IMG/VR virus record: IMGVR_UViG_3300027971_000070
Coordinates: 1-48,660 of that record
Direction: 5' to 3' (one strand)
DNA length: 48,660 bases
Origin: a virus
Part shown: positions 2,432 through 48,660 of the stretch, in pieces
Layout: each line of letters begins with the position of its first letter
Numbering within the stretch: the first letter of the stretch is position 1
Program-made: the position numbers and the translations under genes
The notes under the pieces: model-generated
Databases searched by the model: none
What the model saw: the letters and a program-made list of their open reading frames with translations, nothing else
What the model was told of the DNA's origin: nothing

Positions 2432-2447
2432 TTATCGTTTACGATAA
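2432..2447. repeat. 16-bp palindrome, copy 1
   Basis: TTATCGTTTACGATAA, exact match to TTATCGKWWMCGATAA. Intergenic, seven bases before the collagen-like fibre ATG. Confidence 0.9.
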
Positions 2448-5629: not shown

Positions 5630-5645
5630 TTATCGGTTACGATAA
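5630..5645. repeat. 16-bp palindrome, copy 2
   Basis: TTATCGGTTACGATAA, exact. Fills the gap between two small genes, seven bases before the ATG at 5623. Confidence 0.9.
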
Positions 5646-8230: not shown

Positions 8231-8246
8231 TTATCGTAAACGATAA
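8231..8246. repeat. 16-bp palindrome, copy 3
   Basis: TTATCGTAAACGATAA, exact. In the capsid leader, downstream of the candidate promoter. Confidence 0.9.
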
Positions 8247-12366: not shown

Positions 12367-12382
12367 TTATCGTTTACGATAA
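12367..12382. repeat. 16-bp palindrome, copy 4
   Basis: TTATCGTTTACGATAA, exact. 11 bp before the portal ATG, over the stop of the upstream gene. Confidence 0.9.
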
Positions 12383-15805: not shown

Positions 15806-15820
15806 AATAAACCAAGACTA

Positions 15821-15849
15821 TTGACAAGTCAATATTTTTTTGATACTAT
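15821..15849 (+). promoter_or_regulatory. Early promoter
   Basis: TTGACA (15821-15826), a 17-bp spacer and TACTAT (15844-15849) give a good sigma-70-like promoter. The predicted transcription start (about 15856) is within a few bases of the ATG at 15858, so the first early mRNA may be leaderless. Confidence 0.6.
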
Positions 15850-15857
15850 GATTGCCT

Positions 15858-16244
15858 ATGGATAACACAAACCCTGCAAACAATTTAGATAAAAATCTGG
15901 AAGACCTTCTCGTTAATGTAAGGAAGACAGTTTTAGTTACAAATATGTCTCTCGCTACTTCTATGAATAGCCCATTCATGGCTACCTATGAAAACCAAAA
16001 GGGTATTTGCTCGCTGGCAATGAGGACAAATAATACAGCTATCTTGGCCGCGACATCAACCGGAGGTAGCATAGTTTTTAAATATGATCTTGTTATTACC
16101 GAGGAAGGTATCGGTGAAGGTCGCACTATCATTCAATGCGAAGATGCAGAAAATGCAGATGAAATCTGGGAACTCATAAACGGAAAGATGTATGACTGGT
16201 CGCAGGGCGCAATTGAAGAAGTAAGTATAGAGGAATTATCGTAA
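15858..16244 (+). CDS. First early protein, hypothetical
   Basis: A 128-residue acidic protein, MDNTNPANNLDKNLEDLLVN onward, with a mixed strand/helix body (GSIVFKYDLVITEEGIGEGR) and the end IEEVSIEELS. The ATG at 15858 was preferred over a TTG two codons earlier. It is the first gene after the early promoter, so it may be a host-takeover or regulatory protein, but no motif was recognised. Its stop lies within the palindrome at 16236-16251. Confidence 0.65.
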   Translation: MDNTNPANNLDKNLEDLLVNVRKTVLVTNMSLATSMNSPFMATYENQKGICSLAMRTNNTAILAATSTGGSIVFKYDLVITEEGIGEGRTIIQCEDAENADEIWELINGKMYDWSQGAIEEVSIEELS

Positions 16245-16251
16245 CCGATAA
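16236..16251. repeat. 16-bp palindrome, copy 6
   Basis: TTATCGTAACCGATAA, exact. Over the stop of the first early gene and four bases before the next ATG. Confidence 0.9.
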
Positions 16252-17050: not shown

Positions 17051-17066
17051 TTATCGTAACCGATAA
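17051..17066. repeat. 16-bp palindrome, copy 7
   Basis: TTATCGTAACCGATAA, exact. Immediately after the stop of the PAPS-reductase-like gene. Confidence 0.9.
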
Positions 17067-18422: not shown

Positions 18423-19655
18423 ATGAAAAAAGTCCCAATAGCACGAAAGAGCGAAGCGGCAGTGTTGTCGCTCATCGCAATCGATAGAAACATCCTTTCC
18501 CAACAAACATGGGATAGTGATTATTTCGCCATACCAGCCCACAGGATCGTTTTTAATGCGCTCCAAGGGGTTCACCAGCGGACAGGGGTTTGCTGCCCGT
18601 TTTCTGCCATCGCAGAGCTAGAGGCAACTGGACAATTGGAAGCAGCAGGTGGTGAAGAATCTGTCCACGACACATTATGCACGATGAAGGTAACTTCTGG
18701 GAAGGTTTGCCAAGACATGGCAGATGACTACCGGAAACACCTACACCGCACGAAGGCATACCGCGATGTTCTGACTCTCATGGAGAAGGAAGAAGTAAAT
18801 CTTCGCGCAGGTAAGGCCGATTTGAAGGAATTATCGGAAACGATAATGAAGTGCGCCGAGGATCGGACAACAAAAGTGAAACCAGTCAAAGATTTAATCA
18901 TTGAAATCATCGATGAGATGGAAGGGAAGGCAGTAAAGGATTTCTTTCCTACTGGATTGCTGAAAGTAGATCGTGCCTTGAAAGGCGGAATGCACAAAGG
19001 AGAGATGATGACAGTAGCATCAGAGACTGGTGGAGGAAAATCCATCTATCTTGTCCAAGCTGCACTCGCAAATCTTGAAGAAGGTAAGTCAGTTCTCTTC
19101 TTCAGCCTCGAAATGAAGGCAAAAGACATCCTAACTCGCATGGCTTGTAACTTGGCAGGGTATCCAGTGCGTGAACCAGAGGATTACAAGAACGCCAACC
19201 AACACGAACTCCTCAAAATCAACGCCGCATTGTTGAAATTACACCAGTTACCCATCGAAATCGTGGATGGAGTAGCCGAAATTGACGAGATTGAGGCCCA
19301 AATCAACCGATACACAGGTGAAAAACGGGCAGATGTAATCGTCGTAGATTACCTACAAATCATCTCATCTGATGGTGAAGAGGGTAGAGAAAGCCAGATT
19401 TCGGAGATAGCAAGGCGTTTAAAACTGGCGGCACTGAAGAATAATTCGATCATGCTGACAGCTTCCCAGCTTAACGACGATGGAAGATTGCGCGAATCAC
19501 GGGCGATTGGAATGCACTCTGACCAAGTAGTGTATATCGAACACATAAAGGAGAAGAGTAGGCTGACAATCAAGAAAAACCGCCGAGGTCAAAGGAACTA
19601 CATGACTGAAATAATCATGCGCGGTGACATCTCAAAACTTGAAGAGGTCTACTAA
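18423..19655 (+). CDS. dnaB: Replicative DNA helicase, DnaB family
   Basis: A 410-residue hexameric helicase. The N-terminal helical domain covers about residues 1-110. The RecA-like core has Walker A ASETGGGKS (199-207), FFSLEMKAKDI (226-236), Walker B ADVIVVDYLQII (303-314) and the LTASQLN motif (345-351), with the arginine-rich end KKNRRGQRNY. It unwinds the fork and may recruit host primase and polymerase, since the phage encodes none that I can see. Palindrome copy 18831-18846 lies between the two domains, encoding LSETI. Confidence 0.92.
   Translation: MKKVPIARKSEAAVLSLIAIDRNILSQQTWDSDYFAIPAHRIVFNALQGVHQRTGVCCPFSAIAELEATGQLEAAGGEESVHDTLCTMKVTSGKVCQDMADDYRKHLHRTKAYRDVLTLMEKEEVNLRAGKADLKELSETIMKCAEDRTTKVKPVKDLIIEIIDEMEGKAVKDFFPTGLLKVDRALKGGMHKGEMMTVASETGGGKSIYLVQAALANLEEGKSVLFFSLEMKAKDILTRMACNLAGYPVREPEDYKNANQHELLKINAALLKLHQLPIEIVDGVAEIDEIEAQINRYTGEKRADVIVVDYLQIISSDGEEGRESQISEIARRLKLAALKNNSIMLTASQLNDDGRLRESRAIGMHSDQVVYIEHIKEKSRLTIKKNRRGQRNYMTEIIMRGDISKLEEVY
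18831..18846. repeat. 16-bp palindrome, copy 8
   Basis: TTATCGGAAACGATAA, exact, inside dnaB (LSETI frame). Confidence 0.9.
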
Positions 19656-22121: not shown

Positions 22122-23249
22122 ATGAGTATCGTTAACGATAAATTCAGATTCCATATCCTTGGACTTCCTCACACAGTAAGTTCCAAGGAGTTTAACGCCT
22201 GCGCTTACACCCAAAAGGTAGTGAAGTTCGGGAAGATGATGACGCAGCGCGGCCATGAAGTAATCCACTACGGACACGAAGATTCAGATTTAATCTGCAC
22301 AGAACACGTCCCTGTTCTAACTAATGCTAATTGGAAAATAGCATACGGAAATCACGACTGGCGTAAAACATTCTTTAAGTTTGATACAAAGGATTACGCT
22401 TATCAAACATTCTACCTTAATGCTATTAGAGAAGTAGGTAAAAGAAAACAGAAGAATGATTTTATTCTTCCATTCTGGGGAAGTGGGGTCAGACCAATCT
22501 GTGACGCGCATCCAGACCTAATCACAGTTGAGCCGGGAATAGGATATGCGGGTGGACACTGGGCAAGGTGGAAAGTATTTGAATCCTACGCAATCTACCA
22601 TGCGTTCTGCGGAATGCAGGCAGTAGGAAATTGCCAGCAAGATAACTATGCTGTGGTAATTCCAAACTACTTCGATAAAGAAGACTTTGACTTCTGTGAC
22701 CATAAAGAAGATTACTTTCTTTATCTGGGTAGAGTATACTCTGGGAAAGGTGTAGATATTGCCATTGAAGCTACTAAACGAGCAGGCGTTAAGTTGGTAA
22801 TAGCAGGCCAAAAGGAGGAAGGTTATAAGCTACCAGACCATGTTCACTATGTAGGATACGCCGATGTTCCTACTAGAAAGAGGCTCATGTCAAAGGCTAA
22901 GGCATCCTTCCTTCCAAGTCAGTATGTAGAACCATTCGGTGGAGTCCAAATAGAAAACCTACTTTCTGGCACTCCTACGATAACTACCGACTGGGGTAGT
23001 TTCACTGAGAACAACCTACATGGGATAACAGGATTCCGCTGCCGCACGATGGGGGACTATGTAGATGCGATTAAGAACATTGAGCAAATCTGCCCATTTG
23101 ACTGCAATATTTTCGGAAAAAACTTCACCTTGGAGCGGGTAGCACCCATGTATGAGAAATACTTCTCAGATGTCATGGATGTCTACACAGGAGAAGGGTG
23201 GTATGCCAAAGGAAATAACATCGAAGCAATGAACAGATACTATCCATGA
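22122..23249 (+). CDS. GT-B family glycosyltransferase
   Basis: A 375-residue glycosyltransferase of the GT4-like group. The C-terminal Rossmann half is clear: DYFLYLGRVYSGKGVDIAIE (about 200-220), LVIAGQKEEG, HVHYVGYAD, then the donor-site segment YVEPFGGVQIENLLSGTPTI (EPFGGVxxEALxxGTP type). The N-terminal half (FHILGLPHTVSSKEFNACAY) is the acceptor side. It would transfer a sugar from a nucleotide donor to an unknown acceptor: DNA, a virion protein or a host surface glycan. A palindrome copy (22126-22141) overlaps codons 2-7 (SIVNDK). Confidence 0.85.
   Translation: MSIVNDKFRFHILGLPHTVSSKEFNACAYTQKVVKFGKMMTQRGHEVIHYGHEDSDLICTEHVPVLTNANWKIAYGNHDWRKTFFKFDTKDYAYQTFYLNAIREVGKRKQKNDFILPFWGSGVRPICDAHPDLITVEPGIGYAGGHWARWKVFESYAIYHAFCGMQAVGNCQQDNYAVVIPNYFDKEDFDFCDHKEDYFLYLGRVYSGKGVDIAIEATKRAGVKLVIAGQKEEGYKLPDHVHYVGYADVPTRKRLMSKAKASFLPSQYVEPFGGVQIENLLSGTPTITTDWGSFTENNLHGITGFRCRTMGDYVDAIKNIEQICPFDCNIFGKNFTLERVAPMYEKYFSDVMDVYTGEGWYAKGNNIEAMNRYYP
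22126..22141. repeat. 16-bp palindrome, copy 9
   Basis: GTATCGTTAACGATAA, one outer mismatch. Covers codons 2-7 of the glycosyltransferase gene. Confidence 0.8.
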
Positions 23250-24462: not shown

Positions 24463-24478
24463 TTATCGGAAACGATAA
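24463..24478. repeat. 16-bp palindrome, copy 10
   Basis: TTATCGGAAACGATAA, exact. In the origin-candidate region beside a 14-bp direct repeat. Confidence 0.9.
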
Positions 24479-26515: not shown

Positions 26516-26686
26516 ATGCTCGAAATAACAATGCAATCTATTAATCCCCTCCACACTATGCGGGAAGAGTCCGAACCTCTCCCGCTTTGCTCTATTCGCC
26601 TCGCTATCGCGTTTTTATTACCTTTCCGCACTCTCTACACTCCTTTCCACTATGCGCATTTTTACGGCTTTGATCGTTTACGATAA
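26516..26686 (+). CDS. Doubtful ORF
   Basis: A 56-codon frame, MLEITMQSINPLHTMREESE onward. Composition is odd (Leu, Pro, Phe, Arg), the stop lies in the palindrome at 26671-26686, and it contains one of the CCCTCCACA repeats. It is listed only because the gap would otherwise be empty. It may well be untranslated leader. Confidence 0.2.
   Translation: MLEITMQSINPLHTMREESEPLPLCSIRLAIAFLLPFRTLYTPFHYAHFYGFDRLR
26671..26686. repeat. 16-bp palindrome, copy 11
   Basis: TGATCGTTTACGATAA, one mismatch. Between CCCTCCACA copies, 50 bp before the ATG at 26736. Confidence 0.8.
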
Positions 26687-28660: not shown

Positions 28661-30285
28661 ACATTCACGATCTCATGGCAACAGTTGAGTGGTCGCACCC
28701 CATTCAGCTAAACACTAAACGAGGCGTTCGACTCCTCAAGAAAGCTCCTATCACTCAGCAATTCTGGAAAGTATATGGTGAGGATAAAGAGTTATTCAAA
28801 AAGCAAATGGGTGACGCTGGCATTCAGCTTGGCAAGTTTAGAGAAGAATGGCAACTTACCCATTGGTCAGATGATCAACTCAAGTTTAAGCAGATAATCG
28901 TAACCGATAATCCTGTTGAAGCAGTGCCAGAACTTGATTTAATTCCTCTACTGCACCCCGAAGGCTTGTTTGAGTATCAGCAAACGAGCGTTCAGATGGG
29001 TGTTGCATCGATGCACAAATACAATCGGGTTCTTTTGGGTCATTCCACGGGCGTAGGAAAGACATTCTGCGCCCTTGGTATCGCCAGAGAGTTAGGTAAA
29101 AGAATAGCAGTAGTCTGTCCCAAACCGATAACGACTGACTGGCATCGCGCCGCGAAGATGATGGGCGTTGAAGTCTTTGAGATTTCAGGCTGGGAATGGG
29201 CGAAAACTGGCAAAAGTCAGTTGGGCCGCTGGACGTGCAATGAAAAGAAAACATTCCGTTTCATGTTGCCCGAAGATGTCCTTCTCGTATTCGACGAGGT
29301 TCATCGTGGGAAGGGTGAGGCTACCCAAAACGCTTTCCTTGTTCGTGATTCGGTAGTCCAGAATATCCCTGCTATCGCCCTATCTGCTACTATTGCCGAC
29401 GATCCAACAAAGCTGTGGGCAATCGGTCAGTTCCTCGGACTACACCAAGGCGGGAAAGATTATTTCCGTTTCCTTAGTCAGAACGGATGTCGCAAAACCC
29501 GCTTCGGAATGCAGTTCACAGGAGGTCATTCAGTGCTGAAGAAGTTGCATAGTCGAATCTACCCTGAAAAAGGCAATCGCCTTCGCCACTCAGACTTGGG
29601 CGACGCGTTCCCTGAGACGCTTATCAAAGCTAAAGCCTTCGACATGGACAACGCAAGAAAGATCGCTGGTGAGTATGATGATCTATGTAATCGAATCGAA
29701 GAGTTGCGGATGCAGGAAAACTTCTCGGCTAATGTTTTGGCAGAACAAACCAGAGCAAGGCAGAGAATCGAAATGTTGAAGGCTCCAGCGGTGGCAGCGA
29801 TGGCGCGGGATTTGATCGAAGAAGGTAACTCTATCTTCATCGCAGTCAACTACACCGAAACCCGTGAATGGCTCATGGAAGAATTAAAGACAGATTGTGC
29901 CATATACGGAGGGCAGGATGATATTGACCGCCGAGGCAAGATTGATTCGTTCCAGAATGACAAGTCGAGAGTCATCATTGGAGTGATACAAGCCTGCCGC
30001 GAAGGTCTGAACCTCCACGATCTAAACGGCAATCATGCACGGGTAGCCTTAATCATGCCTTGCCCTTCGATTTTCGACACCCGCCAAGTGTTGGGTCGGG
30101 TGCATAGAGCAGGTGGAAAATCCAAAAGTATCCAGTTTTTGGTTTACGCAGCGGGTGTTCCAATCGAAGAATCCATTTGCGAAAAGTTAGACGAGAAGTT
30201 AAAGCGTCTCGATCTCTTGAATGACGGGGCCATCGACCCTACCATCTCACTAGCTCCAAAAGAAGAAGAAGAGAAGCTGATTTAA
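28657..30285 (+). CDS. SF2 helicase, DEAD/SNF2-like
   Basis: A 542-residue superfamily 2 helicase/translocase. Q-like region FEYQQTSVQMGV (105-116), motif I GHSTGVGKT (128-136), motif II DEVH (213-216), motif III SAT (243-245) and, near the C-terminus, motif V-VI segments ACREGLNLHDLNG and RQVLGRVHRAGGK. Its extra N-terminal 95 residues are not recognised. It could drive replication restart, recombination or transcription-complex removal. A strong AGGAGG lies upstream and a terminator follows 21 bp after the stop. Palindrome copy 28895-28910 encodes IVTDN. Confidence 0.85.
   Translation: MNIHDLMATVEWSHPIQLNTKRGVRLLKKAPITQQFWKVYGEDKELFKKQMGDAGIQLGKFREEWQLTHWSDDQLKFKQIIVTDNPVEAVPELDLIPLLHPEGLFEYQQTSVQMGVASMHKYNRVLLGHSTGVGKTFCALGIARELGKRIAVVCPKPITTDWHRAAKMMGVEVFEISGWEWAKTGKSQLGRWTCNEKKTFRFMLPEDVLLVFDEVHRGKGEATQNAFLVRDSVVQNIPAIALSATIADDPTKLWAIGQFLGLHQGGKDYFRFLSQNGCRKTRFGMQFTGGHSVLKKLHSRIYPEKGNRLRHSDLGDAFPETLIKAKAFDMDNARKIAGEYDDLCNRIEELRMQENFSANVLAEQTRARQRIEMLKAPAVAAMARDLIEEGNSIFIAVNYTETREWLMEELKTDCAIYGGQDDIDRRGKIDSFQNDKSRVIIGVIQACREGLNLHDLNGNHARVALIMPCPSIFDTRQVLGRVHRAGGKSKSIQFLVYAAGVPIEESICEKLDEKLKRLDLLNDGAIDPTISLAPKEEEEKLI
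28895..28910. repeat. 16-bp palindrome, copy 12
   Basis: TAATCGTAACCGATAA, one mismatch, inside the SF2 helicase (IVTDN frame). Confidence 0.8.
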
Positions 30286-30851: not shown

Positions 30852-30867
30852 TTATCGGTTACGATAC
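30852..30867. repeat. 16-bp palindrome, copy 13
   Basis: TTATCGGTTACGATAC, one mismatch. Intergenic, nine bases upstream of the minus-strand TTGACA at 30842. Confidence 0.8.
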
Positions 30868-31155
30868 TTACGGAGTGAAAAGAAGCGGTTGATCGTCTTT
30901 CTCTTTCTCTGGTTCATCGAACCGCTTGCGGAACTGAGCATTCTGGTAATACATGAATGCCAATTCCAGATACTTGATGCACTCAAACCCTTCACCCTTA
31001 CGGGATTCGGATCGAATGACCATCATGCTTGCTGTATGCAACAGACTAGCCATTGCATGGACTCGTTCGTTTAGTGTCTCGTCGGCTGACTTGATAAACG
31101 TGAACGCTTCAAGAACCGCTTTCGAGGTTTCGTTTTGTGGTGTTGGTTCTGACAT
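30868..31155 (-). CDS. Small helical protein, possible nucleotide-sponge type
   Basis: A 95-residue all-helical protein. The core LNERVHAMASLLHTASMMVI, then KGEGFECIKYLELAFMYYQN, has a two-helix pattern and size reminiscent of Acb2-type phage proteins that bind cyclic oligonucleotides and so blunt CBASS defence. The resemblance is faint and from memory only. The tail is acidic and proline-containing (EPEKEKDDQPLLFTP). It is the last gene of the recombination operon, three bases after the ParB/KorB-like gene. An SSB or recombination accessory is an equally fair guess. Confidence 0.55.
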   Translation of the reverse strand: MSEPTPQNETSKAVLEAFTFIKSADETLNERVHAMASLLHTASMMVIRSESRKGEGFECIKYLELAFMYYQNAQFRKRFDEPEKEKDDQPLLFTP

Positions 31156-31158
31156 AAA

Positions 31159-32142
31159 TTATTGCTCCTTCAAGAATTTCATCCATTCTCCTTCGGCTGG
31201 ATCAAACCATGACTTGTCACCAAGGTCGATCAAAAGTTGATGTTCTTGCACTTCTTCGGGCATCGTGCGGAAGACTTCTGAGTTGGAGAAGTTACCGACA
31301 TTTAGAAGAAGGAAACGATGACCTGCTGGTTGGTCGTTTTTACCTTGCTCACTACGCACTCGGTTCCGAACCTCGGTTGAGGATAGCTTCTCGTTCTTTG
31401 CTGCCTCAAGAAGTTCACTCTGCTTCTTAGCGTTGGTCTTATCGTCTCCGAAGTTAGCGTTTCCAATCTCTCGGTAAACAGTAAACGGAAGCATTGGATC
31501 TCTCATTCCTGCTGTGAATACTCTACACGCACGGGCATATCCTGAGATTGTAGAATAACTTTTCTTGAAGTTAGCACACAACTGATTAACTACATCCTCA
31601 TGCCCTGCGTTCTCCAAGGCTACTACCGAATCACCGATGATCCATTGTGCGCCGCTTTCGAGAGTCAGACCAAAGGCAAATGCTGCCACCCAGTCTTTCA
31701 TCTCTACCTCGCCGCGAGGCACACATTGTGTCATTCCTGCGCCAATATCGAACTTAGTGGTAAAGGAAGATAACTCTAAGCCTTGTTTGACACTCTCCAC
31801 AAGGGCGAGCGATTCGTTGACTGGCTCATCTTCAGTCAGTTCAACTTCAACTTCTTCTGCTTCCACTGGATTAGCCAAGCGTTCTTCTGCCATTTCCTCG
31901 GCCATGTCGAGGTCGGCACTCATCTTCTCAAACATCTCCAGCATTTCATCTGGCGCATCATCTTCAAGGTATTCGTTCTTGATGACCTTTGCCCATGCCT
32001 TCTTAATATGGGTTTCGGTGATGTTGATGCCCGGCCATTCGGTTTTAACATACTCGGCCATTTGGGTTAGGTATTTTGACAGAGGGACGATGATTCCCTC
32101 TTGAGTTGGACTGAACAATTCTAATTCTGGTTTTTTTTTCAT
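31159..32142 (-). CDS. ParB/KorB-like DNA-binding protein
   Basis: A 327-residue protein. The N-terminal 110 residues are acidic and helical (KMSADLDMAEEMAEERLANP). Residues about 165-260 (WIIGDSVVALENAGHEDVVN, KSYSTISGYARACRVF, NANFGDDKTNAKKQSELLEA, LSSTEVRNRVR) follow the layout of a helix-turn-helix module in ParB/KorB-related plasmid and phage proteins (GDxxxxxE...xSYxTLxxY...LSxxELRxxVR). The last 60 residues may be for dimerisation. No ParB CTPase motif was seen. A dimer of this type would suit the dispersed 16-bp palindromes. That match is inference. Confidence 0.55.
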   Translation of the reverse strand: MKKKPELELFSPTQEGIIVPLSKYLTQMAEYVKTEWPGINITETHIKKAWAKVIKNEYLEDDAPDEMLEMFEKMSADLDMAEEMAEERLANPVEAEEVEVELTEDEPVNESLALVESVKQGLELSSFTTKFDIGAGMTQCVPRGEVEMKDWVAAFAFGLTLESGAQWIIGDSVVALENAGHEDVVNQLCANFKKSYSTISGYARACRVFTAGMRDPMLPFTVYREIGNANFGDDKTNAKKQSELLEAAKNEKLSSTEVRNRVRSEQGKNDQPAGHRFLLLNVGNFSNSEVFRTMPEEVQEHQLLIDLGDKSWFDPAEGEWMKFLKEQ

Positions 32143-32270: not shown

Positions 32271-33098
32271 TTAATATGGAATGTCGTCTTGAGGTTCGTC
32301 GGTGAAAGGTGAATCAAGGTGGAACACTTCAGCAGCTTTCTCTACGCACTTGGCAAAAGGAGTTGTGAATCCTTTCTCCAAGTAATACTCATAAAGTTCT
32401 GCGAGTTTAGGTTTACCGATGTCAACCAACTTCTTTCCTTTCTGCGAACCGCTTGGAACGATGGCGGATGCCCAATTATTTATGTCTGCATTTTCATTTG
32501 GTTCCTCGGCCTTGGGTTCTTCCTTCTTAGGTGCTTCGACCTTCGATGAATAGTGGATGCCTTTGCGATTAGCCTCAATGAAGACCGACGAGACATAAGA
32601 GCGAAGAGTCTCTTCGTCTGTGATCTTGCCAAGGTATGCCATGCGGACGAGGCTATCAATATACTGGTGCATCTCAACGATCTCATCCAACGCCTTCTCT
32701 GGATTATCGGTTACGATACTCTTGGTTTCAGTGCGGCGAACAGGTTCCTCGCTCGGTCGGTCAAACTCAATCTTACCAGTAGCCGTAACTTTAATGATGT
32801 CACGATCTACCTTGCCATTCTTACCATCGTAAGACTCATGCTCTAAGGATACTCCAGTCAGCCCATGCTTTCCACGGACTGATGAGAGTGTAATCACATT
32901 ACCCTTGATGCTCTGCTCTTGGGTATTGTTGAAGAACTTGAGTCCGTAGGTTTGCCCGTCGATCTCAATATCTCCACCTTGGATGACAAACTCACCCTTG
33001 GGGCCGTTGAATGTCTTAGGTTCCCACAATTTAGTGACCTTGCCAGTCACCCGTTTGATGATGTCTTTCTGTTCGATTCCTTCTAATTGGTTACTCAT
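32271..33098 (-). CDS. Single-stranded DNA-binding-like protein
   Basis: A 275-residue protein. Residues about 12-115 are strand-rich with OB-fold spacing (VTGKVTKLWEPKTFNGPKGE, GGDIEIDGQTYGLKFFN, GNVITLSSVRGK, IIKVTATGKIEF). A helical middle (120-175), a Lys/Glu/Pro linker and a small domain (GSQKGKKLVDIGKPKLAELY) follow. The last residues DEPQDDIPY copy the acidic SSB tip (DDIPF) that recruits SSB partners. It is longer than usual SSB and lies upstream of the ParB-like gene. Palindrome copy 32704-32719 encodes IVTDN. Confidence 0.65.
   Translation of the reverse strand: MSNQLEGIEQKDIIKRVTGKVTKLWEPKTFNGPKGEFVIQGGDIEIDGQTYGLKFFNNTQEQSIKGNVITLSSVRGKHGLTGVSLEHESYDGKNGKVDRDIIKVTATGKIEFDRPSEEPVRRTETKSIVTDNPEKALDEIVEMHQYIDSLVRMAYLGKITDEETLRSYVSSVFIEANRKGIHYSSKVEAPKKEEPKAEEPNENADINNWASAIVPSGSQKGKKLVDIGKPKLAELYEYYLEKGFTTPFAKCVEKAAEVFHLDSPFTDEPQDDIPY
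32704..32719. repeat. 16-bp palindrome, copy 14
   Basis: TTATCGGTTACGATAC, one mismatch, inside the SSB-like gene (IVTDN frame). Confidence 0.8.
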
Positions 33099-33105
33099 AA
33101 TTTAT

Positions 33106-33342
33106 TTACCAGTTGTCTTCGTTTGATTTTAATAATTTCTTTTCCTTGGTTGATCTATCGTAGATGTAGTTGAAGTCAAATACTCCGCTAAGAGAAATAC
33201 GGACTTCCCAACGCATCATTGGATCAACAGTTTCATCTATGATTGCTGGAGGTTGACTTGCCATCCAGTCTAATGCTTCTTGCCTATTCTCTTCTGGCAA
33301 CATCGCCAGTCTTTCGATAGGTGGTAGTAGCTTGCTATTCAT
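33106..33342 (-). CDS. Hypothetical protein
   Basis: A 78-residue protein, MNSKLLPPIERLAMLPEENR onward, with the segment ALDWMASQPPAIIDETVDPM. It overlaps the nuclease gene by eight bases and lies seven bases before the SSB-like gene. A recombination accessory by context. Unrecognised. Confidence 0.6.
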   Translation of the reverse strand: MNSKLLPPIERLAMLPEENRQEALDWMASQPPAIIDETVDPMMRWEVRISLSGVFDFNYIYDRSTKEKKLLKSNEDNW

Positions 33343-34204
33343 TTGTATTATAGGTTGTTTTGTAGTAGTGGCAGAAGGGAGCTACTGAGCAATAACGCTC
33401 GCAGCGGATGTTGCCTCCTGCTCGTGTTTCGATTGAGTGTTTCGCGCCATAGGTAGGAAGGAGTTGTTGTGCTTCCTCCAATGTCTCGCACACTTTTGCT
33501 GCTCGTTTATTGCCATCTTTTTTAATGGCAAAAGTATTTGACTTAGCCCACCGCTCCTTTGGTTCGCAAGCTGGGATCGTATCGTCTGGCATAGCCGCCG
33601 CTGCTTGGTGAAGTTTAACCCTCTCCGTAGCATAGCGGACTACCTCATCATTATCCCACAATGGTATGTCTACAACGTGGACTGCACACTGGGGATACTC
33701 CTTGTCATACTCAGCCTTGCTCGACTGCCAGTCCCGAAGGATAGCGACGATCTGACCTTTCTTGACTTCGTATCCATACTCTCTCCATAAACAAGCGTTC
33801 AAATTAATTTGTTGCTCCCACTCAGATTTTCCGCCGAGGAGGAAAGAGAATACTGAGGTGACCTTAAAGTCACTTATTACTTTGTTGCCGATCTCATACA
33901 AGTCAGTCTGACCTGTGAGTGTCCAGCCATTGATCTCTTTGTAGAGACGCTTCTCAGTCATCTCTTCCTCACCGCCTGCCAGCTCAAGAACCTTGTGAAC
34001 CGACTGACCAAGTAGTGCCCACACCCTATCGGATGCGTCTTCTGTGATCTGGTCGGAGTAGCGTTTCTTGAGTTGGTTAATCTTTGGTGGCCCGATAAGG
34101 GTTGTTACCGATATGTCTGCCTTCTTAGTTCCCGCCATATACCCATCATGGGATAAAGCGCGGAACATAGGTGCTGGGAGGTCGTATCGGTTAGTTATCT
34201 TCAT
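33335..34204 (-). CDS. RecB/Cas4-like PD-(D/E)XK exonuclease
   Basis: 289 residues from MKITNRYDLPAPMFRALSHD. A longer start at 34246 would overlap the upstream gene more. Nuclease motifs: H70 in GQSVHKVLE, D101 in TGQTDLYEIG, D112-x-K114 in VISDFKVTS and a QQINLNACLW helix (131-140). The C-terminus has a cysteine cluster (IRCERYCSVAPFC) as in iron-sulfur AddB/Cas4 nucleases. It would resect DNA ends to feed an annealase or host RecA, together with the SSB-like protein and, from another operon, the resolvase. Confidence 0.8.
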   Translation of the reverse strand: MKITNRYDLPAPMFRALSHDGYMAGTKKADISVTTLIGPPKINQLKKRYSDQITEDASDRVWALLGQSVHKVLELAGGEEEMTEKRLYKEINGWTLTGQTDLYEIGNKVISDFKVTSVFSFLLGGKSEWEQQINLNACLWREYGYEVKKGQIVAILRDWQSSKAEYDKEYPQCAVHVVDIPLWDNDEVVRYATERVKLHQAAAAMPDDTIPACEPKERWAKSNTFAIKKDGNKRAAKVCETLEEAQQLLPTYGAKHSIETRAGGNIRCERYCSVAPFCHYYKTTYNTNE

Positions 34205-34340
34205 CTGAATCCCAATATGTAGGTTCGATGCCTTGATCCATGTCACGCTTCATACATTGCCGTAAAAACGCTTCATGCCTTGCTTCTTCTATCTCAGAAG
34301 AAAAATCTTTTTCATCCCAATCTCGTTCGGGTAATTCCAT
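34191..34340 (-). CDS. Hypothetical acidic micro-protein
   Basis: A 49-residue protein, MELPERDWDEKDFSSEIEEA onward, ending YWDSDEDN. Its start overlaps the upstream stop (TAATG) and its end overlaps the nuclease start by 14 bases. These overlaps are the evidence for translation. Confidence 0.5.
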   Translation of the reverse strand: MELPERDWDEKDFSSEIEEARHEAFLRQCMKRDMDQGIEPTYWDSDEDN

Positions 34341-34558
34341 TATTCGGTAACTGCTGGGAGTTTGCCTTCAAAACAGACTGCTAAGATTTCCGACACACCT
34401 TTGAGGTGGTCACCCATCTTGATTACTGTTGATGCACTTGCCAGATTACCGAGGTCGAACTTGCCATCCGCTGCTGTAGCAGAGAGAAGGCGAAGGTAGA
34501 TTTCTTGTTGAAGCTCACTTGGAGCGTTTGTTTTTGTAGGTGTAGGTTTATCTTTCAT
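34340..34558 (-). CDS. First gene of recombination operon, hypothetical
   Basis: 72 residues from MKDKPTPTKTNAPSELQQEI. A Met 11 codons earlier (34591) coincides with the predicted transcription start and is less likely. It is helical, with LLSATAADGKFDLGNLASAS and MGDHLKGVSEILAVCFEGK. No family recognised. Confidence 0.6.
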   Translation of the reverse strand: MKDKPTPTKTNAPSELQQEIYLRLLSATAADGKFDLGNLASASTVIKMGDHLKGVSEILAVCFEGKLPAVTE

Positions 34559-34597
34559 TAGGTTTTTATGGACGGAGGTTGCGCCGTTCACAAGGCA

Positions 34598-34625
34598 AAT
34601 CTACACCCTCCGATTATCGTGTCAA
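34598..34625 (-). promoter_or_regulatory. Promoter of recombination operon
   Basis: On the minus strand, TTGACA (34625-34620), a 16-bp spacer and TAGATT (34603-34598), giving a start near 34591. A palindrome copy lies 31 bp upstream (34656-34671). Confidence 0.5.
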
Positions 34626-34655: not shown

Positions 34656-34671
34656 TTATCGGTTACGATAA
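34656..34671. repeat. 16-bp palindrome, copy 15
   Basis: TTATCGGTTACGATAA, exact. Between the giant gene's terminator and the recombination operon promoter. Confidence 0.9.
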
Positions 34672-34673
34672 CA

Positions 34674-34706
34674 GAAAACGCACCCCCGAATACTCAGGAG
34701 TGCGTT
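34674..34706 (-). terminator. Terminator after giant virion gene
   Basis: AACGCAC (34677-34683) with GTGCGTT (34700-34706). On the minus strand the stem is followed by TTTTC. The T-run is short, so strength is uncertain. Confidence 0.55.
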
Positions 34707-34776: not shown

Positions 34777-37700
34777 TCAAGGCTTTTTCGCAGCTACCCT
34801 AACTTTGTTCTCTGCGATGTCCCTTGCGCGATTACCAATTCGCTCAACAATTTTAGTGTAAGCATCTGGTTTCATCGCGGAAAGTTTCTCGTAATTATTT
34901 TTCATAGATGTCGTAAGAATAGTTCCATATTCTCTCACGAACATCTCGTATTCTTTGTTGGTTGGTTGCCTGTCGAGCCTTTGTGCGAGCTGATTCCGAG
35001 TCGGTATGCTTGGCCCTCCACCTTGGTTTAAAACTAACTCATGGAGCTTGATTGATTCTCTATCAGTCGGAATGTCATAGACAATCGGAACTCCAAGTTT
35101 AAACATCTTTGATGCCATGTCAGTTGATAGCGAGGGTTCACCAAATGCGTTCAAAGATTTTGGTGCTACAACAGGCCCGATGAATGGGATGTTTGACCAT
35201 ACCGCACCATCCAATGTTCTCCTGTCAATCGGATCGTTGATAAAGTTTGATAGGTTGCTTGCAAGACTTGTTCCCAATATTGGAATCAGAGTCTTTGCAG
35301 GGAAAGTTAGACCCTTGGCAACGCCCTCTACACCTATGTCTCCGTAGGTTCCGAAGAGTGATTTAGTGGTGAATGCGTATGGCCCACGTCGAAGTGCTGC
35401 ATCAAATACAAACCCTGCTACAATCGCCGCATCTTCTAATTGCGTGGCAGTATTAGTTTTCTTATTTTGTTTCTTGCGAATCTCAAGATCATCCATCGCG
35501 CCAAGCATCATGGCGGGCCAAGTGAATGCTTCAAATCCCCTCATCATATTCAAAGCAAATTTAGTTTTGCCAAAATATACACTCATCGTGTTTGGCTTAT
35601 TGCCTGCTTTATACCAAGAATCGTAGAACTGAGGATCATCTTTCCTTTGTGGGCCATTGCCAGTAAAAACTATCTTGAACGCATCCTCATCCTCTGGATC
35701 GTCTGTTGATCCAGCACGGAGGGCAAACAATGCAGTCAAAGCTACAGTTCCAGCAATAGCCTCGTTTAGCCTTTGGCTATACTGAAGATCATTCCCAAGT
35801 GACTGAGCATATGGGGATGTCTTGCCCATTTTTTTTGCAGCATAGTCATATCCAAAGCGAACGAATCCGTATGGCGAGAACCAAGCTGTGTCACGAATTA
35901 CGCGAGCAGGAACGATAGCAAACCCATAGATTACTCGGCTGAATAATTTCAGAACTTGGCTTTCACTTTGATTCGCAGCATTCGCCATTGACTCTAACAA
36001 CCACAAGGCAGGCATCGAAGATACTCCAGCGTCCTTCATTTTTGTTGACTCGTCTTTCAAGGCATCAATCGACTGCCTATTCCTACCAACTGAGGACAAC
36101 GCATCGTTGATTGCAGCATCCATCGCTTGTTTAATATCATTGTTTTCTACGCCTGCTTTAGTGAGAGCTTCACTCCATGATGAAATGTAGAACTCATCAG
36201 CAAGAATGCTTGCTCTGTTTTTATCGGTTCCGATAGCGATTTGTTGAAGGTAGAAATCATTCTTGGCTTTCATCATTACACCAAACATTTCGTTTGCGTC
36301 TTTGGTGGACATCCCTTGCCGCTTCATTACCGCCATCGAATATTTGCTGATGTTTTGATTCTGAAGTGAGGCAATCGCGCCATAATCTAAAGCATTCAAA
36401 ATACGACGAACATAATCCATCATACCAATCATCATGTTCTTCACACCATCTGCACGTTGTCTTGATGTTGTTCCGTTCTTGAATTGATTTACTCCGCGAT
36501 TGTAAAGACGAAGCAATCTCTCATCATTTACGATGTAATCTACGTTTGAATAGACTGTGACATTATTCTTGAAAGAGTATGCAACTGTGTTTGCCCATGA
36601 CTTCATTGAGTCCATGAACGCAGTCGTAGCATTTGTGATAGCCTTTGGATTTCCTTTAAGTGTTCCTGATCCAATCTCAACGATAAGATTCCGCATAGCA
36701 AATGCGATTGGTGAGAATGCGTTCACAGTTAAGGTAGGGATACCACTCAAGGCTTGAGCATCGTAGTATTGTCCGATTACGTCTCTTGCTCTAATAGGCA
36801 GCTTGGCTTTAGAAATAACATCTTGGATTGCTTTGTAGGCTTCTGCCTTTTTAAGTTCTCCTGCTTTTGGATCAGCGAGGATAGCGTCATTCTTAAGTAG
36901 GGTCTTATACTGCTCTGGAGTAAACCCAGTCCATCCATTGAGTGCCGCCATGTCACTCAACACATTCCTTGCCGGGTCTAATGCGCCAGCACGGAGGGCT
37001 TGCAATACCTTTTGAAATGCTCTGCGGCTTCTGGTATCTCCAGATTTCCAAGGTGCAGTCTTACTGATAGCATCTGTGAATGCCTGCTCCTGCGCCATTG
37101 TGAAGCGTTTCTGGAGCGAGATGTCCATCAGTTTGGCTATCCGTTCAGCTTGGGATAAAGATAATCCTGCTCTACGGAGATAGTCACGCATGACTTCGTA
37201 TCTCCAATTAGGATTCTGCTGTTGTTCCAACGGAGTTTCCTTGATTGCTTTGACGATCTCCGAGATTGGCCCTTTCTCAATCGCTTTGTTGATGGAGGAT
37301 AGTTCTCTCGAAAGGTTATTGATCTCATGCTGTCTCCAAACGATGTCAGCCAGTGTCTCTGCTGCCGCCAGTTCAACTCCTGCTTCTTGTAGTTTGGCAA
37401 CCAACATGGACTTCCAAGGAGTTTTGCGCCCCATGTCTGGACGTTGTTTTAAGTCATTAGCTACGATAGCACGGACATCATTTGCGGTCTGCCTTGCTGC
37501 TGCTGGATCAAACGAAGGTGTATCAGACTGAATCTTGGCGAGCTTTTCAATCTCTGCGTCAGCCTGCTTCTGAACCTTCTCGTATTCTTTATCCAGTTCT
37601 TGCTCTTCAGTCTTGCGCTTCTCTTTACCTTTCTCAGTAGCTTTAGTGAACTCTTCGTTGATCTTACCCACCAAGTCAGTTCCAGTCCGATCACCGACTG

Positions 37701-40700
37701 CTTTGATCTCATCAGTCAACTCTTGCTCGGTTACTTGTGGAGTTTTTTCTACCGCTGCATAGGCATCTTTGATAGATTGAATTTGATCTTTAGTTGGGTT
37801 AGGCCCGTAGATGAACTCTGCTACATAGTTGGTGTAGGCATCCTGTTCAGCATCCCCCATCATGCGGAAGCGTTGGCTTAACTCAAGTCTTGCGCGTAAA
37901 TCTCTAGCGGCATCGCTTACGCCGATTGCAGCAGTCGGTAGTTTGTTGATGTTAGTCAACATCATACCAAGCAGTTTCTTATTTCCTTCTGCTGCAAGTC
38001 TAATGGAATACTCAAACAAGTCGTTAATGAACAATGCAGCACCCATGCTGATCTCACTCGCTGCGCCAGACTCATCTACTACCCTACCAACATCGTTAAG
38101 TTCTTTAGCAAAATCAGTTCCACCCCTACCAGTCAATCTTCCCAATGCACGGAATGCTTCGGTAGTATTGTTTACTGATACTTTCGATGGATCAAACTGC
38201 TTTCTTAAGAGTTCTTTGGTTTTAGCAATAATGCCTTCTGGGGTTGTTTTTGGTGGGCCAACTTCTTGGCTCATGATCTGCTCTGGTTTTCCAGTTGGCG
38301 CGGGTTCTGCTACCGCCTGAGTCTTTCCACCTAACTTACCTCCACCAACATTGACTGCACCAGCTTCACCCTTCTTCGGAAGATACCCCATCAGTTCATT
38401 CAACTTCGCTGGCGCACCGCTCACTGCTTGCCATACTTCCCCAAGGAACTCTCTCACAGCATCACCGAATTGCTGGATCATCTGTTTAGCCCAAGCACCA
38501 AACTCCATTCCAGCCTCGTAGATGTTCTGTCCTGCTTGGATGAAGTCTTCTTTGGTGGGGATTAGAACGCCGCCTTTTTCTCCAAGTTTTGGTTTGGTTA
38601 TCGTTTCCGATACTGCGGGGGTGGGTTGCGATGTAAGGGATGGAACAATTTCTCCGCTCCTAAAGTATCTAACAATTGGTCGCAGTTTCTCTAATTCAGA
38701 TTCTTGAATGTCTTTTTTAGAAATATCCGCTCCAGATGCAATGATTGCTTGCGTGAATTTCTTGGCTTCAGACAAAGAATTAAACTGCATAATACGCAGT
38801 CCAGAATGCCAATGGTCAACATTGTATAGCGCATTCTTGCCAGATGTTACTTTTCTTATTCCGACATCTCCATATCGTTTTGATTCAAAAGCCTGATCTG
38901 AACCATCTGGCGCGGTGAATCGCATTGTTTCAGATTTTCCTGTTGGAATCTTGACTTGAGATATTGCGTCTTCGTATGCCACCTTTTCTTCATTAAATTG
39001 TCTCTGTTTTTCCTGCTCCTGCTGTTTCTTTTCTGACTCTTTAGCTTCTACAGCAGAAACCCTGCCTTCCTCTTCATTAAGAATGTTCTGGAAGTATTGA
39101 TTTTTAATTTCAATATCTTGAAGGTTTCTCCGTTCCTTTTCAAAGAAACGCTTCATTACGGAATCTTTGTTAGTATTGTGTCCGTAACCTCCGCTTTCAA
39201 ATGGCTGATTTGATCCAATCAGTCTAATTCCGATTGAAAACATATCCGGCCTTTCTGGAAGCAGCCCTTTAACTAAAGCAAATTCAGTATTATTTTTTCT
39301 ATCAACAGCAACAATGTCTCCAACCTCTGGCGCGGGAGCTTCTGCTGGTGCAGCTTGCTCTGTGACTGGTGCGGGAGTGGCTTCTGAAAAAGCTGGGCCT
39401 GTTCTTACTCTTCCATTTTCAAATGTGTAAAATGTTCCTTTGTTTGATCGCTGTATTGGAGTTCCGTTTATATCGGTTCCAACTACAGGATCATTTTTAG
39501 GGTCTGTTGTTTCAATTAGCCGATCTCTGAATTTTGTTACAAGATTTTGGTAGCGAGACTGATCTTGTTTCGTGAACTTAACTCCACGAACTTTGTTTTC
39601 CGCTTGCCCCTTTCTTTCCATCAAGTCGTTAAGTTCAGCAAATTCTTTTTCATCGCTGACAGACATTGGTTCTTCTTCGATAGCTGGTGCTGGTGCAACC
39701 TCTACTGATTTCCTTCTTGCTCCAGCAAATACATCAAACACTCCAGTCTGTCCTCCATAGGTTCCCTCTGCGGTTTGTTCTTCAATCGTAGGCGCGGCAG
39801 GCAATTCAGCAGGTTTAGGTATAGCTACTGGCTTGCGCGTTATGCCTCCGAATACATCATAGACTTGTTCTTCTCTGCCATAGGTTGCGCCCGGTGTCTC
39901 GGTAGGCAATACATCAGTTGGTAATGGTCTCGCCTTGGCTTCTGGAGTGGTAATAGCTTTCGCCAATTCTGCCTGTTGCTTCTCTGCTTCGGTTATCGTT
40001 TCCGATAATCCAGTAAGACCAGTGAATTGCTTGTTAAGTTCTCCAAGCATTGACTCACCTTCGGCTATATCAAGTTTAAGAGTCTGCGCTTCTCTGCTTG
40101 TAGGCTCAATCGCGGCCAAGGTTTGCTTGCGTATCTCTTGAACTTGAGACAATGCTTTAATCTGTTGGTTAAGATTGTTGGCTTCTGTATCGTCTGGTGA
40201 AATCGAAAGATCGTTTGCTACCCTATTAGCGGCATCATTTATTTGATTTTCAGCAATTTGCTCTGGAGTTTTGGGTTGAGTAAATAATACTTTGCCAACT
40301 TCTTTCCCGCCCATGCCAGCAACTTTTACAACGCCACCCGCGCCTGTCGTGATAGCACCCAACGCCAATGTAGTAGGAGCAACTTCTTTGAAGGCTTTTA
40401 CTGCGCCAGCTAACCCTTGGTATTCGTTTGGTGCGCCTGCCGTGGAACCAGTTTGAACATATTGTTCCATCTTTGCTTGGTCTGGCCCCTGCTGTGTTTG
40501 AGTGATAGTTTCACCAGCAAGTTCAATTGCTTGCCCACCCGCAACTGCGCCAACCTTTTTCAATAAAGTATCATTTGCTTTTTTAATCGCTTGACCAGCT
40601 ACATTCGTTGCTGCTTTCTTTCCAAATCCAAAAGCATACTTCAATGCGCCAAGTTCAACTGCGTTGCCGATAGCCTCTGGCCCTGCTTCCCACAATGCTG

Positions 40701-44239: not shown

Positions 44240-44724
44240 TTGATTAAGTCGGTTCTGTTATGCCGCCACTTCTGCACCCTTGGGTCTTCCTTGGCGATGT
44301 GGGGATTAAAGTCTCTTGAAGTGATGCTGTCAATAATTTCGTCTGGATCAGTTAAATCAGTGACATGGCAGGTAGTCCAGATTGTATCTTTATGAGTGGC
44401 AAGCAAACGCCTCGTTCCTGCTTCTGTGATACCACTGTAGCCTGTTTTGTAGCGATGAGCAGGGATACCATGATACCAGACAGTCACATCACCTTTCATC
44501 ACGAAGAACGGATGCGTAGTTAGATGGAGTAAACTTGTGAGAATCGTATCCTTCGGCATATAAATTTCCCGAATATACATTCCCGGTGTGAACCTATGCA
44601 CCAGCGGACATTCCCGTGGAGGTAGTTTTAGAATCTCCAAGTCCATCAAGTTAAGCTCGTAGTCTGGATCACCATACCCAACCACATTTCTCGCGTCGAT
44701 CTTATCTGGAATTGTCAGTGTCAT
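44236..44724 (-). CDS. Cupin-like phage protein
   Basis: A 162-residue protein whose core (GMYIREIYMPKDTILTSLLH, PFFVMKGDVTVWYHG, YSGITEAGTRRLLATHKDTI, WTTCHVTD) has the strand order of a cupin barrel. Such proteins are common in phage head-tail regions with no known reaction. The usual metal histidines are not all in place (H67 and H71 are candidates), so a structural role is possible. Four-base overlaps on both sides. Confidence 0.65.
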   Translation of the reverse strand: MTLTIPDKIDARNVVGYGDPDYELNLMDLEILKLPPRECPLVHRFTPGMYIREIYMPKDTILTSLLHLTTHPFFVMKGDVTVWYHGIPAHRYKTGYSGITEAGTRRLLATHKDTIWTTCHVTDLTDPDEIIDSITSRDFNPHIAKEDPRVQKWRHNRTDLIK

Positions 44725-45688: not shown

Positions 45689-45704
45689 TTATCGTTTCCG
45701 ATAA
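45689..45704. repeat. 16-bp palindrome, copy 19
   Basis: TTATCGTTTCCGATAA, exact. Six bases before the head-tail connector ATG. Confidence 0.9.
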
Positions 45705-46390: not shown

Positions 46391-48385
46391 CTAATTTACG
46401 ATATTGTATTCCCAATATTTTTCTTGGCAACACAAAAATGGTTCACATTCTTGATTTTCTTCTGGGCAGTCACCAACTGGAGAATCATCGTTGTTCTTGA
46501 TGTTTGCCATTAGGCGAACTCGGTCAACAGTAGCCGCGCCAGTGAGGTTGACTTTGATCTGGAACTCGCTGCCCTCTACCGATGGGATACCTGCCAAGTC
46601 ATTGCACTCACTTGGGTCTGGAGTGTTAAACTTGTAGCGTTTATAGCGATTGCCTCCCCTCTGAGGAATACATTCAGTTACTTGTGGTGAACATGAATCG
46701 CACCCGTAGGTTGTAGGAACTTTAAGTTCTGACCAACATGGATTAGAATCAGAACGGAAATCTACATAGCTATCTACTTGGCCTTTAATCTCACTCATCC
46801 ACATTTCTCCACCAGTAATTTTTTTGCGGAGGAACTTGTTTGTTGCCCCGCTTCGATTGAAGTCATACCTACCAGTTGTGAAAAAGGATTCTATCTGCCT
46901 GCTACCATTTGGCCCGTAATCGTCGCCTTGTGCTACAGTGAATTCGTAAAGTCGGTTCTTGTTGTCTTTATCAAACGAGAATCCGAATCCTCGCTTCTCA
47001 GCTTGGATTAGTGCTGTCAGTAGCTGAGTTGGTCTAAAGCCTGTCCAAATGCCATTCCAGCGGAAAGAAAGCTGTGCGTCTGGTGCAGGTGAAGATGATT
47101 GATCAAGATCAAGAACCACCATTCCCCTATGATAGCGATTCAGTCCTTCTACCCCTGCCGCTCGATAAGTTTGCGGAGCTACTGTGCTAATTATGTAGTT
47201 ATTGAAAAACATCGTAGAAGCGAATTGCTTCAACCAAGGCGTATCATTTTGCACCCACTTATTCACTTCTCTAGACAGTTTGCGAAGTGAGAAGTATCGC
47301 GCAAATTCAGATTGGCTATTGGAGTAAAATGCCCAACCATCGTGTGACCTAAACCAAAGCTCAGAGTTTGCTAGTGCCAAATATGGACTTGTGCATCCAC
47401 GTCCAAGCAATGAGATACGTTGGATGTTCGATGTATTCCATTGTGACCTTGGTATAGACACATCCATTGAGAAAGCTCCATTACCAGTAAGGACTACAAG
47501 CTCACCTTGGCCGCGAAGGTTGGTTCCAATCTGTGGCATTACTCTCATGCCAGTAATATTCCCCATCATTGCTGGAGTAGAGAACGCACCGCCTTCTGCC
47601 CAATATCCAATCTCGGTGAAATTCTCGGTATTCTTGGTATCGGTAAACCCACCGCCATAGATAATGTCAGATGCGTAGATTTGATTGAACCTATCAGAAA
47701 CAAAGACTCGCCCGAATGCGTATTCCATCACAGTTCCAATCGGCATCTTTGCCAAGTATGGATTCAGTCGGTAAGCAGGAAGTTTTACTGTGCCAGTTCC
47801 TATTCCGCTTCCAGTTGCCGTAAACTTTACTCCGACTGTATTGGATGGCGCACCGATTAAAGTAAAATCAGTAGTGCCAACTGAAACAATTTCCGAGTAA
47901 TCGTTGTTTTGGATTTCAAAAGCAGTCAGCGTTCCTAATACGCCATCCCATGCTATCGCATTCTGGTATCCGTTTTGGATATACGCCCGATCTTCAGCTT
48001 GCACAAAGAATGTGTGCATCATGCCCGGATCGTTACCTTCGATGATCTTGTAGGCGTATGCTTGGTTGTTTACTATCTTTAGAAAGTAGATAACTCCAGA
48101 TACAGATAGTAGTAGTCCATCGCTGGTTCTGTAATTGGTCGCCCGATATGGATACGCACCTTGGAAGTTACCTCCAAGAATATCGTTAACGATAGTCTCA
48201 GCTTGCCCTGTTCCCGCAACAATTGAGATGTTCCGAATGCTTGGTCTTGTTCGGTTAATGCCTCCTCGGAATGTCCTATTGACTGACTCTGCTACAAAGG
48301 ATTCTGGTAAATATGATGGGTGAGTATCTGCGTCTTGTGCAATGATACTTGTGAACCCATCAAAGACTGATCCTTCTGCTGGCAT
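46391..48385 (-). CDS. Tail nozzle, tail-tube-B-like
   Basis: A 664-residue beta-rich protein (ESFVAESVNRTFRGGINRTR, FGRVFVSDRFNQIYASDIIY, GNGAFSMDVSIPRSQWN), with a Cys-rich end (YGCDSCSPQVTECIPQ, CEPFLCCQ). Length, composition and place beside the 320-residue connector fit the T7 gp12-like nozzle that caps the short tail. The C-terminal cysteines are unusual for the family and could bind metal. Palindrome copy 48180-48195 encodes IVNDI. Confidence 0.65.
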   Translation of the reverse strand: MPAEGSVFDGFTSIIAQDADTHPSYLPESFVAESVNRTFRGGINRTRPSIRNISIVAGTGQAETIVNDILGGNFQGAYPYRATNYRTSDGLLLSVSGVIYFLKIVNNQAYAYKIIEGNDPGMMHTFFVQAEDRAYIQNGYQNAIAWDGVLGTLTAFEIQNNDYSEIVSVGTTDFTLIGAPSNTVGVKFTATGSGIGTGTVKLPAYRLNPYLAKMPIGTVMEYAFGRVFVSDRFNQIYASDIIYGGGFTDTKNTENFTEIGYWAEGGAFSTPAMMGNITGMRVMPQIGTNLRGQGELVVLTGNGAFSMDVSIPRSQWNTSNIQRISLLGRGCTSPYLALANSELWFRSHDGWAFYSNSQSEFARYFSLRKLSREVNKWVQNDTPWLKQFASTMFFNNYIISTVAPQTYRAAGVEGLNRYHRGMVVLDLDQSSSPAPDAQLSFRWNGIWTGFRPTQLLTALIQAEKRGFGFSFDKDNKNRLYEFTVAQGDDYGPNGSRQIESFFTTGRYDFNRSGATNKFLRKKITGGEMWMSEIKGQVDSYVDFRSDSNPCWSELKVPTTYGCDSCSPQVTECIPQRGGNRYKRYKFNTPDPSECNDLAGIPSVEGSEFQIKVNLTGAATVDRVRLMANIKNNDDSPVGDCPEENQECEPFLCCQEKYWEYNIVN
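48180..48195. repeat. 16-bp palindrome, copy 20
   Basis: ATATCGTTAACGATAG, two outer mismatches, inside the nozzle gene (IVNDI frame). Confidence 0.7.
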
Positions 48386-48660
48386 TATGCGTTGACACTT
48401 TTGATTACAATGAATCGCAGACTAAGAGCTTCAGATAATGATCCTCCGGTAATGTTACGGATCGTGACATTGGCATTACCTGTTGCTGGAGCTACCGCAA
48501 AGTTGTATGCACCAAGCGTTCCTCCAGAGATGTGACTTACCAACACGATGTCCGTAGCTTCAATAACCGAATTGCTCAAGTTGAAGGTAACGGCGGTAGC
48601 GGACGCAAGTGCCGCGCTATCGGTAACGATAATTCCAGTAGGACGATTGAGAGTAACAGC
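48385..48660 (-). CDS. Tail or fibre protein, N-terminus cut by window edge
   Basis: Open to the window end, 91 residues visible. It reads AVTLNRPTGIIVTDSAALAS, TAVTFNLSNSVIEATDIVLV, SHISGGTLGAYNFAVA, then VTIRNITGGSLSEALSLRFI. The segment VSHISGGTxGAYNxxV...ITGGSLSEAL is a familiar phage tail module. The in-frame TTG at 48579 is unlikely to be the true start because the coding signal continues to the edge. The stop overlaps the next ATG. Palindrome copy 48617-48632 encodes IVTDS. Confidence 0.65.
   Translation of the reverse strand, partial: AVTLNRPTGIIVTDSAALASATAVTFNLSNSVIEATDIVLVSHISGGTLGAYNFAVAPATGNANVTIRNITGGSLSEALSLRFIVIKSVNA
48617..48632. repeat. 16-bp palindrome, copy 21
   Basis: CTATCGGTAACGATAA, one mismatch, inside the gene cut by the window end (IVTDS frame). 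Confidence 0.8.

Follow-up and report, generated by a model that had tools for sequence, protein, structure and literature searches.

P0001, a 327-residue protein encoded in the phage record analysed here, is a well supported candidate for the reader of a 16-bp palindrome, TTATCGKWWMCGATAA (as a 16-mer, TTATCGGAAACGATAA), that recurs throughout the same genome, and with slightly better than even chances it is a dimeric ParB-type DNA-binding protein that regulates transcription phage-wide, its own included, in the manner of KorB or of a stoperator repressor. The window, i.e., the whole stretch of DNA under study, is an entire IMG/VR record of 48,660 bp, and its features are collected in Table 1. 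The P0001 open reading frame runs intact from ATG to stop on the minus strand (32142 to 31159), the plus strand of this interval being riddled with stop codons, so that the 327-residue protein proposed here by the sequence-only reading is real, albeit on the minus strand. It belongs to an operon which extends from 34591 down to 30868, includes the exonuclease gene as well as P0001, and has at its head a terminator, a palindrome and a TTGACA promoter in an order common to most related records; for the 275-aa product of the neighbouring gene 32271-33098, Pfam and PHROG gave no family match.

The palindrome is present in the window in 12 exact copies, compared to a mean of 0 in shuffled sequences, in 20 copies with at most one mismatch (shuffle mean 0.07), and in 23 when two mismatches are allowed (1.8 expected); the dispersed motif noticed earlier is thus real and lies far above chance by shuffling (20 versus less than 0.1). 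In the aligned window sites the 12 arm bases are 0.84-1.00 identical (at least 0.96 at 17 of the 20 sites), as opposed to 0.76-0.92 for the flanks, and the higher conservation of the arms also holds for sites within coding genes. Sites are kept at orthologous positions among related records. The base preferences are symmetric under reverse complementation (K at position 7, M at position 10) and positions 1/16 and 7/10 show no pairing-type covariation, as would be predicted for double-stranded DNA read by a dimer. In length the palindrome equals both parS (16 bp; PMC12260392) and the KorB operator OB (16 bp; PMC11790492).

With respect to their distribution, the window sites are separated by gaps of ~2.2 kb with a coefficient of variation of 0.48, versus 0.93 (sd 0.18) for random placement, and none of 5000 simulations of random placement was as even as the window. 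Even spacing is found in most records, with G001, G007, G010, G025 and G026 as the exceptions. Although the coding fraction is 0.90, 218 of 517 sites (42%) lie outside genes, and of 190 upstream sites 121 have their centre 0-29 nt ahead of a start codon, where they mostly fill the stop-to-start junction. Promoter-like sequence is found 5-40 nt from 44 of the 517 sites, compared to 3.8 (sd 1.9) at random positions, in a count where the related genomes are not independent and the random positions ignore intergenic placement; in the window only three of 21 sites have promoter-like sequence close by. A KorB-like placement of sites at promoters, that of P0001's own operon included, is borne out by these data. 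Counting against a regulator, about 58% of the sites fall within genes, an unexpected location for a promoter operator.

Table 1. Position of P0001, its gene neighbourhood and the palindromes in the window.
Feature	Position	Strand	Basis or conservation
P0001, ParB-type HTH protein, candidate palindrome reader	31159..32142	-	ORF, core fold and homologues
Predicted conserved core, residues 118-272, ParB/Noc-like DNA-binding domain	31327..31791	-	AF2 and Foldseek
Predicted helix-turn-helix, residues 182-208, second helix YSTISGYARACRV	31519..31599	-	AF2 and homologue alignment
Promoter-like TTGACA-N16-TAGATT of the P0001 operon	34598..34625	-	sequence
Palindrome, 30 bp before the -35 box of the P0001 operon	34656..34671	.	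motif scan
Terminator-like hairpin directly before operon site and promoter	34673..34704	-	sequence
83-aa gene, first after the operon promoter	34340..34591	-	
RecB/Cas4-type exonuclease, P0001 operon	33335..34246	-	phrog_2139, 9e-52
78-aa protein, same gene run as P0001	33106..33342	-	
275-aa protein upstream of P0001, same gene run; intragenic site	32271..33098	-	SSB/OB-like by eye only
95-aa protein directly downstream of P0001	30868..31155	-	in 20/26 records; no family
Palindrome just before start codon of gene 806-2425	2432..2447	.	
Palindrome just before start codon of gene 5357-5623	5630..5645	.	
Palindrome, intergenic	8231..8246	.	
Palindrome just before start codon of gene 9915-12356	12367..12382	.	
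Palindrome within terminase gene	14526..14541	.	kept in 21/22 aligned records
Palindrome at junction before gene 16256-17050	16236..16251	.	
Palindrome upstream of promoter-like TTGACA...TATAGT	17051..17066	.	
Palindrome within DnaB-like helicase gene	18831..18846	.	kept in 14/14
Palindrome (1 mismatch), start of glycosyltransferase gene	22126..22141	.	
Palindrome, intergenic	24463..24478	.	
Palindrome (1 mismatch)	26671..26686	.	
Palindrome (1 mismatch) within helicase gene	28895..28910	.	
Palindrome (1 mismatch) just past end of gene 30868-31155	30852..30867	.	
Palindrome (1 mismatch) within gene 32271-33098	32704..32719	.	kept in 12/13
Palindrome (1 mismatch) within 2193-aa gene	36221..36236	.	
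Palindrome (1 mismatch) within 2193-aa gene	38598..38613	.	
Palindrome within 2193-aa gene	39993..40008	.	
Palindrome just before start codon of gene 44721-45683	45689..45704	.	kept in 18/18
Palindrome core (ATATCG..CGATAG)	48180..48195	.	kept in 23/24 aligned records
Palindrome (1 mismatch)	48617..48632	.	

At the sequence level P0001 stands apart from described families: Pfam yielded nothing up to E = 1, the single PHROG match (E 0.016) is meaningless, a PDB sequence search returned no credible relative, and HTH_ParB (PF17762) had zero matches across six related records. An hhalign comparison with KorB of R751 showed no sequence relationship, but had little power because KorB was entered as one sequence only. 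The ParB/Srx CTPase domain PF02195 had no Pfam match in P0001 or 17 homologues, and nothing above the curated cut-off in 30 related records. While a fold search with the full-length AlphaFold2 model, which is of moderate quality (pLDDT 76), failed, the core model alone (residues 118-272, 18 sequences; pLDDT 90.4, pTM 0.84) had as its best PDB match Thermus Spo0J (probability 1.00, TMq 0.52, E 0.13), followed by two Geobacillus Noc chains (probability 0.98 and 0.97, TMq 0.52 and 0.51) and, in fifth place, Myxococcus ParB (probability 0.69); its viral fold matches include two phage proteins annotated as Spo0J/ParB-like. Since the Foldseek E-values are weak (0.13-0.32 for Spo0J and Noc, 0.13-1.7 overall), the ranking and the Foldseek probabilities indicate a fold resemblance and do not prove common descent. 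The predicted structure supports a ParB-type middle-domain fold for the core, with the helices of the HTH at residues 182-191 and 196-208. According to the full-length model the core is preceded by a short N region, which is helical and includes a long helix (65-90), and followed by a small beta C-terminal region, residues 277-322 being modelled with moderate confidence as five short strands. The ParB/KorB-like HTH middle that had been read from the letters therefore stands as a fold, with Spo0J and Noc as top PDB matches in the structure prediction suggested at the time, but not by sequence, where no library matched; and with neither a sequence relationship nor a CTPase domain, membership of P0001 in KorB or ParB proper is not supported.

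A direct search recovered 34 relatives of P0001 in viral contigs, and 61 loci were confirmed once the alignment included the distant homologue of record G025, while none were found in INPHARED phages or PLSDB plasmids at the sensitivity used or in GTDB genomes, where the search was sensitive to close relatives only. P0001 represents an orphan family of an uncultured phage group, now tied to a precise and testable DNA target. P0001 is present in 37 contigs of 40 kb or more, among them the window and G027, which has only the first 18 P0001 residues at its contig end, and every one of the 37 holds 12-33 sites; the 17 contigs of this size that lack it, all found through an exact palindrome, hold 1-4 each. 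The proposed co-occurrence of protein and motif was thus recovered in both directions, in that among records of 40 kb or more none was found with many sites and no P0001, and none with a whole P0001 and few sites. Motif-rich records without P0001 are all shorter than 40 kb, and four of them that were inspected at the level of single genes (G026, G030, G036, G040) miss the neighbouring helicase-exonuclease-SSB block too. G020, with a P0001 N-terminus and one site, was considered as a counterexample and left out of the count; it is related to the phage group only over its last ~2 kb, which holds the site, and is therefore probably a chimera. This contig (L172-L174) is otherwise an AT-rich, unrelated sequence of 55.7 kb ending in an SSB-like gene and the P0001 N-terminus, i.e., a probable assembly chimera or recombinant.

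As all P0001-bearing records except G025 form one lineage, the co-occurrence is largely inherited, and G025 is its most informative case. This record, judged closed from its 123-bp terminal repeat, has a terminase only 29% and a portal-like protein only 21% identical to those of the window, and contains 12 sites against a shuffle mean of 0.03. Its P0001 homologue is 27% identical overall and keeps the start of the second HTH helix, S-Y-S-T-V-S. Besides P0001, iterated profiles (which contained G025 rows, the E-values being inflated) identified as common genes the terminase, 9915-12356 and 12374-12751, which adjoin it, and 44721-45683, all of virion or packaging type.

Amongst known systems, ParT of the Streptomyces plasmid SCP2 is like P0001 in having a ParB-type HTH core, no CTPase fold and an inverted-repeat site, which comprises 18 bp as compared to 16 bp here; ParT, however, works with ParA and has its mapped parS in its own gene, whereas the phage has no ParA and about 20 sites (PMC12260392). 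As judged from the description of ParT and not from an alignment, P0001 would resemble a CTPase-less ParB/ParT-type protein in its layout. KorB of IncP plasmids likewise combines a ParB-type DNA-binding core with 16-bp operators, which precede promoters at distances of either 4-10 bp or 45 bp to over 1 kb, but unlike P0001 possesses a CTPase domain, and it has KorA as a partner (PMC11790492). In cluster A mycobacteriophages, more than twenty stoperators are bound genome-wide by a repressor which is proposed to be autoregulated and is encoded near a Cas4-family gene, and there as in the present phage many of the dispersed sites occupy short intergenic spaces; stoperator repressors, however, bind as monomers to asymmetric 13-bp sites in one orientation, whereas here the sites are palindromes and the candidate reader has a ParB-like core (PMC6550527, PMC9283540). 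A fixed-orientation asymmetric site was not found in the phage group, the site being palindromic and its spacer bias mostly compositional. By analogy, the sites at gene junctions are reminiscent of stoperators and those at promoters of KorB operators. Noc, the second-best structural match of the P0001 core, recognises numerous palindromes scattered over a chromosome and contains, besides a membrane-targeting sequence, a CTPase domain; it differs from P0001, in which no CTPase domain was detected.

The ORF, the fold resemblance, the co-occurrence of protein and motif, and the sites with their conservation, spacing and placement are observed here; that P0001 binds and dimerises, and in which direction it would act on transcription, is inferred. 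A P0001 dimer would sit on the 16-bp palindrome with one subunit per 8-bp half-site and would occupy some twenty regularly spaced positions along the genome; at promoter-side sites, that of its own operon included, and at gene-to-gene junctions it might regulate transcription phage-wide, thereby controlling its own expression and damping or organising transcription along the whole genome. If this is true, it would extend CTP-independent DNA binding by a ParB fold from plasmid partition to genome-wide phage control and represent a second answer to the problem that stoperators solve.

The even spacing in the window and in most records, together with the many sites deep within genes and conserved there, would also fit a protein that loads at these sites, spreads and thereby coats or compacts the phage genome for protection, replication or packaging and not for gene regulation. 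The domain layout of P0001, with a short N region and long helix, an HTH core, a separate C region and no CTPase fold, resembles that of ParT, and since ParT, which is ParB-like but has no CTPase domain either, needs no NTP to load at its site and move along DNA by diffusion, the missing domain is no bar to spreading (PMC12260392). Owing to the even spacing and the conserved intragenic sites, coating remains a serious alternative, if a rather doubtful one: sites are enriched near promoters, a conserved site lies at the operon's own promoter, and spacing is uneven in the five exceptional records named above. Tentatively, a motor-less, CTPase-less ParB/ParT-type protein might use about twenty loading sites ~2.2 kb apart to coat and silence or organise the whole phage genome, as a ParB-fold counterpart of the stoperator system. 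The sequence-only reading had instead proposed a plasmid prophage in which P0001 and the dispersed sites form a partition (centromere) system. Some cluster A mycobacteriophages do carry parABS in place of an integrase (PMC6550527), the P0001 core is ParB-type, and the reported lack of an integrase now extends to 30 records, in which neither a tyrosine integrase nor a serine recombinase was found while controls were positive. However, the reported lack of ParA and of a CTP motif holds across 30 related records just as well, the ParA ATPase (AAA_31) being found in 0/30 with controls positive in 14/14, and P0001 has no relative in the GTDB, PLSDB and INPHARED searches described above; terminase relatives were not found in GTDB either. 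Partition sites are, moreover, usually clustered rather than evenly spread. As ParA is missing and neither a prophage nor a plasmid form came up in the GTDB and PLSDB searches, plasmid-prophage partition is unsupported and in our view very unlikely.

That P0001 is merely a co-inherited neighbour, and that the palindrome is read by another factor, most plausibly the XRE/Cro-like protein encoded at 15463-15795 or a host factor, would agree with the occurrence of the XRE gene in 24/26 records, about as widespread as P0001, and with the single lineage to which most P0001-bearing records belong. We nevertheless consider this unlikely, as in most relatives a palindrome of its own, TATTGACTTGTCAATA, lies at the promoter of the XRE gene, G025 retains motif and P0001 but yielded no XRE homologue, and motif-poor contigs never have a full P0001. 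A role of the palindrome as RNA hairpin rather than DNA site is the least probable of these readings, although AA prevails over TT in sense-strand spacers (158:53) and in five records small early genes are preceded by a leader hairpin whose stem varies in a compensatory way and whose tip bears the motif. Once related sites are collapsed, the ratio of AA to TT becomes 70:26, against a sense-strand background of 63:37, so that the strand bias is mostly a matter of composition; in addition, pairing ends at the 16-mer in most window cases, and the symmetric preferences without covariation are those expected for double-stranded DNA. Rfam had no match in the window or in pieces of G001, G007 and G010.

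In the window, TATTGACTTGTCAATA is located at 15819-15834, in overlap with the XRE promoter; it recurs in most relatives and is probably the XRE operator, while a TTATCG site near the XRE promoter occurs only in a few records (G029, G052, G059). The records G006, G015, G025, G052 and G059 have direct repeats of 123 or 127 bp at their ends, and as these are like those that assemblers leave on closed circles, the five records (about 49-54 kb) are probably complete genomes. The 2193-aa gene at 34777-41358, which has three palindromes inside, is conserved only partly among relatives, and a PAPS-reductase-like gene (16256-17050, phrog_424) occurs in the window and in one other of the 26 records compared. 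Finally, the leaders of small early genes in G001, G007, G010, G056 and G060 (e.g., L038, L049) contain a long hairpin in which CAGACACT, a paired and compensating stem, TTATCGNNNNCGATAA, the returning stem and AGTCTG follow each other, succeeded by a second small hairpin and the start codon; the sequence of the stem varies among these five records while its pairing is kept.
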